A stretch of 34,356 nucleotides of DNA from the NCBI GenBank assembly GCA_017614995.1, contig JAGAAX010000001.1, forward strand, positions 1-34,356, read 5' to 3'. The notes under the pieces were generated by a model. That model did no database searches, was not told where the DNA came from, and saw nothing but the letters and a program-made list of their open reading frames with translations. The position numbers were made by a program, and so were the translations under genes. This DNA is from Spirochaetaceae bacterium. GTDB taxonomy: Bacteria > Spirochaetota > Spirochaetia > Treponematales > Treponemataceae. Of this stretch, positions 3,765-34,209 are shown one piece after another (position 1 is the first letter of the stretch; each line of letters starts with the position of its first letter).

Positions 3765-4412
3765 ATGCACAAAATGAAAAAAGTTGTTATTTGTGGTTTT
3801 ATCTTAATAGTCAGTGCTAATGCTTTTGCACTAGGTTCTATAATAGCTCAATATAAGGTTGAACATCACCCTTTGGTTAGATCTTTGGATTATGACGGTA
3901 GCAGTAATTGTTCAGGAAATGCATTTACACTAAGGTTAAAAAATGGGCACGAGATTTATTTTACAGGTGTTAAATCAAATTTTACCTTCAACAAGTGGAG
4001 TGGAATCTGCTATATAAATGATGTACATTTTGTTACTGATGACAATTATGAATCATCAGAAAAAGGTAGCCTGTATCTATATTTGAGACTAATAGATTTA
4101 TGTAAGGCAACCGGTACAAATTATAATAATGTTTTATCTATATTGGATAACTATAATGAATTTTGCAAATTATTGAATTCAATACCTTGGATTCAAGATG
4201 ACGATGCTGAAAAGCTGTATGTAAAATACAATGCAAACCATTATGTTTATTTATACAGAGGTAGTATTGCTAAAGAACAAGAAAACAAATTTATAGAAAT
4301 TCCAGAAGATTTGGATTATGAAAACTTCGGAAGAGAAACATTCAAAATAGATTTTAGTAAAGATTCACCTCAGTTTTTTGGAAATAAGCCTTTTAGGCTT
4401 GAAAAGCAATAA
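3765..4412 (+). CDS. Hypothetical exported protein, AT-rich orphan
   Basis: 215 residues, not recognised. The N-terminus is a clear signal peptide (MKK, hydrophobic stretch VVICGFILIVSANAFA, cleavage probably after AFA), so the mature protein should be periplasmic or outer-membrane associated. It contains few cysteines and many Asn/Tyr/Asp residues and no motif I can name. AAGGAG at 3755-3760 sits four bases before the ATG used here; ATG at 3774 (MKKVVICG) is a possible alternative that gives a more typical signal peptide. It lies 12 bases after the kinase gene and could be transcribed with it, but its base composition is much more AT-rich, which suggests separate acquisition. A palindromic element begins 28 bases after the stop, as also happens after the exported orphan at the other end of the window. 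Confidence 0.75.
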   Translation: MHKMKKVVICGFILIVSANAFALGSIIAQYKVEHHPLVRSLDYDGSSNCSGNAFTLRLKNGHEIYFTGVKSNFTFNKWSGICYINDVHFVTDDNYESSEKGSLYLYLRLIDLCKATGTNYNNVLSILDNYNEFCKLLNSIPWIQDDDAEKLYVKYNANHYVYLYRGSIAKEQENKFIEIPEDLDYENFGRETFKIDFSKDSPQFFGNKPFRLEKQ

Positions 4413-4440
4413 CATAACAAACAACATAGATGTGCACATC

Positions 4441-4538
4441 CAAGAACCTGCGTAGGCGGATTTTGGTGCGCAAAAAATTCTGCAGGCACGAAGTGCCGAA
4501 GCCTTTTTGTGACGGAATCCGACGAGAGCAGGTTCTTG
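4441..4538 (+). repeat. Imperfect palindromic repeat element, copy A
   Basis: A 98-bp element bounded by perfect 11-bp arms, CAAGAACCTGC (4441-4451) and GCAGGTTCTTG (4528-4538). The arms continue inward across a mismatched patch (GTAGGC opposite GACGAG) to GGATT/AATCC. The apex holds a separate hairpin, GGCAC-GAA-GTGCC (4485-4497). A diverged copy in opposite orientation lies at 33139-33235. Both copies lie directly after the stop codon of an exported orphan gene. It could be a REP/MITE-like element, a structured RNA or a complex transcription terminator; there is no T-tract to favour the last. Confidence 0.8.
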
Positions 4539-4592
4539 CTTATGGTACATTTTCTAGATTTGGTTTTCATAGTCATTCTGTTATTGCCATGC

Positions 4593-33077: not shown

Positions 33078-33138
33078 GTTACCGGCTGGTATTTGTAGGC
33101 AAACACATAGGAAATGGCTATCAGATTGCGGAGCATGT

Positions 33139-33235
33139 AAGAGCCTGCTCTCGTCAGATTTCATTCCGCGAATTAGATTCGCACCTTCGGTGCTCATGTA
33201 ATTCACGTCACGAAATCTGCCTATGCAGACTCTTG
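33139..33235 (-). repeat. Imperfect palindromic repeat element, copy B
   Basis: Diverged copy of the element at 4441-4538, in opposite orientation. It shares GACGAGAGCAGG exactly (minus strand of 33144-33155), plus TGCACAT, CAAGA, CTGC, TAGGC and GATTT in order. The apex hairpin is GCACC-GAA-GGTGC (33181-33193). It begins about 15 bases after the stop of the exported orphan at 33250-34209. Confidence 0.8.
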
Positions 33236-33249
33236 AATGTGCATATTTT

Positions 33250-34209
33250 TTATTGTATTTTCCATTTATGTCTTTCTTCTAAAGGAATTCTTATATCAGG
33301 CGGATTTAAATCTGCTTCTGTTATGATTTTACGGGCTTTTTTCCCTTTATAATCATGGTTATCAAGAATAAACAGATAAGTGAATTCTTTGCCAATATAC
33401 TTTTCTTTAGGAACAAGAGATACTGATTCTGTCTGAAAATTGAAAAATCCGCATCCATACGGAGTTATGAATTCAATGCCATTTTCTGTTTGATTATAGA
33501 AAGTAATTTCATCTACCAAAACACTTTCTATTTTTTTTATGCCGTCTATCTTGTAAAGACTACAACCGTCATAAGAAAAATACTTGCGATACATATTATC
33601 AAAATATTTGTGAAAGAAATCTGCACCTAGATATTTTTCTTTTAGCTCTCCAAAATTTTCCGTATCATCAACCTCATAGTATTTGCCGTCTTCTTTAAGT
33701 TTCAGATAAACCCTATTTAATTTTCTTTCATAAACAACATCCAATACAATTCCTTTTTCATATATTTCCCAATAAGATGCAACACAATTATAAAGATAGC
33801 CACCTTCTTGTCTTGTTATTCCACCTATAGAAAAAACATCCTTAAGATTTTCATTTTTCATTATAATATCAGGGAAAATATACAGGCTATTGCAAATAAC
33901 AGGTAAATATTTTTTCTCAGAAGGGTTTTCTGTATTAAGAACCGAAAGACTACTTACACGCATTGGTACGATTCCCATTTCCAAATTTGGAAAGCATTCA
34001 ACAATACTGCATGATTTTGCATCAACATAATACGCATAAAACGGGCGTTGCATTTGAATTCTGTATTTATTTGTTTTGTGATTACTGTTAATCACAAAAT
34101 CTTCATGCGGACATATAGAATCAAATACATCAAGCGTTCCTGATTCTGCGTATATAAACAGACTTGTTAATAAACAGACAAAAATCGAAATGAGCTTTTT
34201 ATTCATCAT
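33250..34209 (-). CDS. Hypothetical exported protein, AT-rich orphan
   Basis: 319 residues, not recognised. Signal peptide MMNKKLISIFVCLLTSLFIYA with cleavage probably before ES (residue 22). The rest is mixed alpha/beta with many Tyr, Lys and Asn and no motif I can name. GGGAGA lies a few bases before the first ATG. It is AT-rich compared with the core genes and is followed by palindrome copy B, as the orphan at 3765-4412 is by copy A; the two proteins show no clear similarity to each other by eye. Confidence 0.8.
   Translation of the reverse strand: MMNKKLISIFVCLLTSLFIYAESGTLDVFDSICPHEDFVINSNHKTNKYRIQMQRPFYAYYVDAKSCSIVECFPNLEMGIVPMRVSSLSVLNTENPSEKKYLPVICNSLYIFPDIIMKNENLKDVFSIGGITRQEGGYLYNCVASYWEIYEKGIVLDVVYERKLNRVYLKLKEDGKYYEVDDTENFGELKEKYLGADFFHKYFDNMYRKYFSYDGCSLYKIDGIKKIESVLVDEITFYNQTENGIEFITPYGCGFFNFQTESVSLVPKEKYIGKEFTYLFILDNHDYKGKKARKIITEADLNPPDIRIPLEERHKWKIQ

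Follow-up and report, generated by a model that had tools for sequence, protein, structure and literature searches.

Our results indicate that two distant palindromes in the 34,356-nucleotide stretch of DNA analysed here (the window), which comes from a Spirochaetaceae bacterium, are copies of a dispersed hairpin element whose core is probably kept as a folded RNA, read in the GYAG-to-GAGA direction, and whose carrier would be moved by a transposase. On our best reading, this is a new dispersed element, a hairpin with a core that matters at the RNA level; the molecular job of the core is one that we infer. The initial annotation had described the two palindromes, copy A (4441..4538, + strand) and copy B (33139..33235, - strand), as sharing a fold with compensating changes, and both alignment and folding bear this out. 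They are not a lone pair: about 41 copies occur in the same draft genome.

The core spans approximately 98 nt and consists of an outer stem, a GYA/GRRA internal loop, a second stem, a second internal loop, a third stem and an apical GAA hairpin. Copy A (hairpin core P3, A-type) is matched by model R1 at 4435-4544 and copy B (P3, B-type, without MITE ends) at 33132-33241, each with 114 bits. In A, all on the + strand, the predicted outer stem pairs 4442..4451 with 4528..4537 (covarying helix 1) and is followed by the conserved internal loop, with the GYA side at 4452..4454 (G in 51 and A in 53 out of 53 aligned copies) and the GRRA side at 4524..4527 (G in 48 and the last A in 50 out of 53). 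The apical stem GGCAC-GAA-GTGCC lies at 4485..4497 and forms helix 4, in which all five pairs have two-sided changes; the same apex reads GCACC-GAA-GGTGC in B, and the inner arm pair GGATT/AATCC of A is AGATT/AATCT in B. In sequence and alignment, the outer arms of the two copies are CAAGAACCTGC/GCAGGTTCTTG and CAAGAGTCTGC/GCAGGCTCTT, and GACGAGAGCAGG is common to both. When the sense strands were folded as RNA, both copies were much more stable than 200 shuffles each, with z values of -5.6 for A and -7.3 for B.

The copies in the draft genome of the window (G000), of which a first set came from a blastn search of that genome with A as query, comprise 33 found by a covariance model and about eight with longer centres (C and D types). 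The model, a search that the initial annotation had proposed, was built from 20 copies and run across eight members of the genus, seven of which have copies: besides G000, there are 13 places in G002, about 10 in G003, about nine in G005, four in G007, three in G004 and two in G001, counted by hand with matches on both strands merged, and the model finds none in G006. Weaker model matches, under stricter filters, were found in three other genera within the family (G074 and G080 in g9, G068 in g13 and G035 in g10); the g9 copies retain the GUAG and CGAGA sides and differ in their stems, and the g10 copies retain chiefly the apical part. A 16-base pattern scan of wider genome contigs was too unspecific, giving chance-like matches, and the three spirochaete matches inspected are not the element. 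The A/B pattern had no match in viral contigs, and no relevant description was found in the literature on Treponema repeats.

Selection on structure, which the preserved pairing had been taken to imply, is well supported by covariation, fixed loops, a sense-strand folding bias and a G-T excess. We aligned 53 copies with MAFFT without fitting them to the structure; at 34 named pairs, 93.7% of the stem cells form standard pairs, compared with 72.7% in shuffles. Two-sided changes occur in 30 out of the 34 pairs. The covariation score was 0.581, compared with 0.204 in shuffles and at most 0.123 when partners were slid by 1-3 columns, in a test that somewhat favors the structure because pairs 21-91 and 22-90 of the RNAalifold consensus of 20 copies were adjusted after inspection of the columns; 0 out of 500 shuffles reached this score, a count that is not a probability because the copies are related by descent. 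Shared ancestry may also contribute to the covariation signal. Two loops are fixed, with nearly invariant columns: the internal loop in which GYA lies opposite GRRA, and the UCUGCA/GAA/GAAGC module at the apex. Furthermore, the strand that reads GYAG first is the better RNA fold than its complement in 60 out of 64 copies (mean -7.6 kcal/mol). Among helix mismatches, with two columns of common wobble left out, G-T outnumbers A-C by 54 to 14 (31:2 in G000, 10:2 in G003, and nearly even in G002, G005 and G007), an excess that could also stem from transcription-linked C-to-T mutation.

It might be argued that the palindrome is purely a DNA element, that is, an ordinary MITE palindrome in which matching changes arise by template-switch correction of quasi-palindromes, with no selection on RNA. 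The target duplications and inverted repeats of the carrier fit this idea, as do two cases of inverted orientation at orthologous sites (L013 vs L054; L325 vs L320) and a few copies that have turned into perfect palindromes through the former internal loop (L041, L339, L342 and L346), as template-switch correction predicts. However, such correction should erase the mismatched internal loop too, yet this loop is intact in 54 out of 64 copies by a pattern test, and a sense-strand bias would not be expected. We rate selection at the RNA level as more likely, chiefly on the ground that stems turn over and yet most copies retain the mismatched loop, and we consider the DNA-only explanation unlikely. 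Inner-stem pairing is lost in some copies with C- and D-type centres and the loop is gone in others, which means that the fold is not required at every site. That the fold, and not the stem sequence, is kept across four genera suggests a role as a transcribed RNA.

The carrier of the core behaves as a MITE. Many copies in G000 lie within a MITE-like element of 290-440 bp that is bounded by terminal inverted repeats (CANGGYTTCAGCATGAAA). Between these repeats, hairpin P2 (GGCGGAAA..TTTCCGCC) is followed by the core, which often makes up the 3' part, and each of the two hairpins has a variable tip. The TTCAGCATGAAA ends gave 98+114 matches at ≤1 mismatch compared with 9+6 for a reversed control, the matches listed including about a dozen from an unrelated contig-end IS and some within genes. 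Direct repeats stand at a constant distance of 6 bases from TTCAGC, on its outer side, with a length of 10 bp at six sites, 11 at two and 12 at one; these nine sites, with spacing that fits a 10-12 bp target duplication, compare with approximately 0.15 expected from a mismatched-flank control. Searches of seven congeners with the flanks of 27 sites led to 70 orthologous regions, and their comparison showed that, for most composite sites, the flanks are nearly joined and the module is absent in one or more relatives. Target duplications, inverted repeats and empty sites together support mobilization as a MITE, one of the possibilities raised by the initial annotation. At A, only a decayed right end (TATGGTACATTTTCTAGATTTGGTTTTCATAG; 4539..4572, + strand) is seen by eye in comparison with full copies, with repeat coverage at 4417-4571, and both the left end and P2 are absent. 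Other inverted repeats, read by eye, flank the core in G002 and G005. As possible helpers, Y1_Tnp and DDE_Tnp_1 (PF01609 and PF01797 searched) are absent from the draft genome G000.

Elements that lie in opposite orientation at orthologous sites, with differing modules or stems, suggest in-place inversion between the inverted repeats. L013 in G000 and L054 in G004 share the same insertion point with the interior inverted, and in G005 and G007 (L325 vs L320) a shared pair of genes encloses the core, which points in opposite directions in the two genomes. In addition, L012 (G000) and L074 (G003) have common flanks and carry composites with different modules. Hairpin P2 (GGCGGAAATCCG..CGGACG..TTTCCGCC) is present in composites and also, at several sites of the genus (L017, L053, L063 and L077), without the full composite, and thus appears to form a second module family in its own right. 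Further arrays of small hairpins (GCGTTTTGC..GCAAAACGC, AAGTTTTGC..GCAAAACTT, GGTGCACA..TGTGCACC) were seen at L060 1-400 (G006), L039 860-1246 and L010 1325-1480, and their small hairpins recur as tips within P2 and the core. A 135 bp IS end (TAGCCTGAAATTCGAGTTTTCATGCTAAACGG) is common to the starts of contigs C1, C3, C7, C9 and C20 and to the end of C16 (L031-L036); no Pfam family matches its peptide of 39 residues. This IS was rejected as a helper because it carries a similar 12-mer inside the apparent C-terminus of its transposase, in the wrong orientation. Positions 1-400 of the window, at the contig start, hold a tandem repeat with a 40 bp period in seven overlapping register copies.

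The initial annotation had also tied the palindromes to exported orphan genes. A and B indeed lie downstream, in the same relative orientation, of genes with a signal-peptide-like stretch at their start: the gene upstream of A (3765..4412, + strand; exported, no Pfam match) has its stop 28 bases before A, and that upstream of B (33250..34209, - strand; exported, no Pfam match above the cut-off) has its stop 14 bases before B, both being linked to the core by position only. The connection is not causal on this evidence. At site A, G003 has an ortholog of the upstream gene together with the core, both gene and palindrome are missing from G004, and a different gene without the core occupies the site in G001; at site B, G001 has a different exported gene beside the same tRNA gene, again without the core. 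The G003 homolog of the gene upstream of B adjoins other genes, and no core was found there. Since relatives carry other orphan genes or nothing at these sites without the palindrome, the link with exported genes looks secondary; the sites are variable slots, and the palindrome is no fixed partner of the genes. In L252 (G003), around 290-340, the core is followed by a repeat of the 3' end of the gene that precedes A and then by a lipoprotein gene on the opposite strand, which marks stacked insertions or recombination in the site A slot.

Stand-alone copies do favor gene 3' over 5' ends (23:8), and the upstream genes are mixed. Those within 50 bases and with a complete N-terminus are exported at A and its ortholog, B, L306, L324, L330 and L354, and look cytoplasmic at L007, L336 and L344. 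Stand-alone copies also lie mostly on the same strand as the upstream gene (31:14), both ratios being counted by hand with genes from simple ORF calling. These placements, along with a T run that ends some copies (L307, L308, L331 and several in G002), could indicate intrinsic terminators or 3'-UTR stabilizers that spread with their host genes. However, no GC-rich stem with a U run behind it, the mark of an intrinsic terminator, is present at A or B, the MITE-borne copies frequently lie between divergent genes, and terminators have no need of conserved internal loops; we regard this explanation, too, as improbable.

For the hairpin element with an RNA-level core, we propose that a transposase would move the non-autonomous carrier, and that copies landing behind genes would become 3'-UTR hairpins of the transcripts. 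Recognition of the two conserved loops by a protein or by RNA-processing machinery may then keep the fold intact, and the exported neighboring genes would be passengers of the same variable intergenic slots. More tentatively, the core might be an undescribed, family-wide structured RNA. A host factor would bind its two loops, and small mobile elements unrelated to one another would have adopted it again and again as their core, the RNA module and not the DNA ends being the unit that persists. Bacterial palindromic repeats have mostly been described as DNA elements, with RNA roles only loosely proposed. The case for RNA is unusually strong here, as the stem sequence is near-completely turned over and the loops are fixed across genera and carriers. 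The core motif offers a concrete bait for a binding protein, the covariance model could be submitted to an RNA database, and the small elements themselves document how hairpin modules are naturally inverted and swapped in place.

Among known families, Rfam gave no match for the element, either at the gathering score in the window or at E up to 1 in 20 other loci; the Rfam elements that passed were known tRNA, RNase P and TPP only. In GTAG-tagged REPs, GTAG is followed by GCGGAT, and so it is in the core. Like the core, GTAG/CGTC-tagged REPs are intergenic palindromes that contain GTAG and often lie downstream of genes (PMC3733652), and these likenesses would fit a REP moved by a RAYT (Y1) transposase, as the initial annotation had considered. 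This reading fails its main test, because the Y1 transposase is absent from the own genome and the Y1 loci of two relatives (G002 and G004) have no core or MITE motif nearby beyond weak 3-mismatch matches. Moreover, unlike GTAG/CGTC-tagged REPs (PMC3733652), the element is longer (at least 98 nt), its GYAG faces CGRRA within the stem of a hairpin of about 98 nt, as an internal loop and not at the base of a hairpin of only 20-40 bp, its genome is without a RAYT, and its carrier makes target duplications. A REP origin is thus largely refuted and, in our view, highly improbable.

Integron attC sites share with the core the conservation of structure over sequence and a variable terminal structure, and an orphan gene with its palindrome could be taken for a gene cassette. 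In support of this, G000 has an integron integrase (L373, G000:C28:36294-42042; TIGR02249, 420 bits) followed by a cassette array, in which several exported orphan genes, a MazF-like gene and attC-like repeats (CATAACATGCACTT..AAGTGCGTAGTTAT) are seen before the contig ends within it. However, the model finds no core in this array, whose repeats look different, and the GTTRRRY box occurs in only one out of 64 core copies; the array's own attC-like repeats also misfit a strict GTTRRRY/RYYYAAC box. The core thus has no R boxes and the resident integron uses other repeats, so we rejected the attC reading, which is refuted on the features tested and to which we assign next to no probability. The BOX elements of pneumococci are modular intergenic hairpin repeats with a variable middle and, compared by description only, resemble the present element in these respects, but belong to another phylum; the internal loops are fixed here. 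With bacterial MITEs the carrier shares terminal inverted repeats, target duplications, no visible transposase gene and empty sites in relatives. It differs from them in holding a covarying, RNA-like core that is also present without MITE ends, and in that the modules inside it are exchanged and inverted in place.
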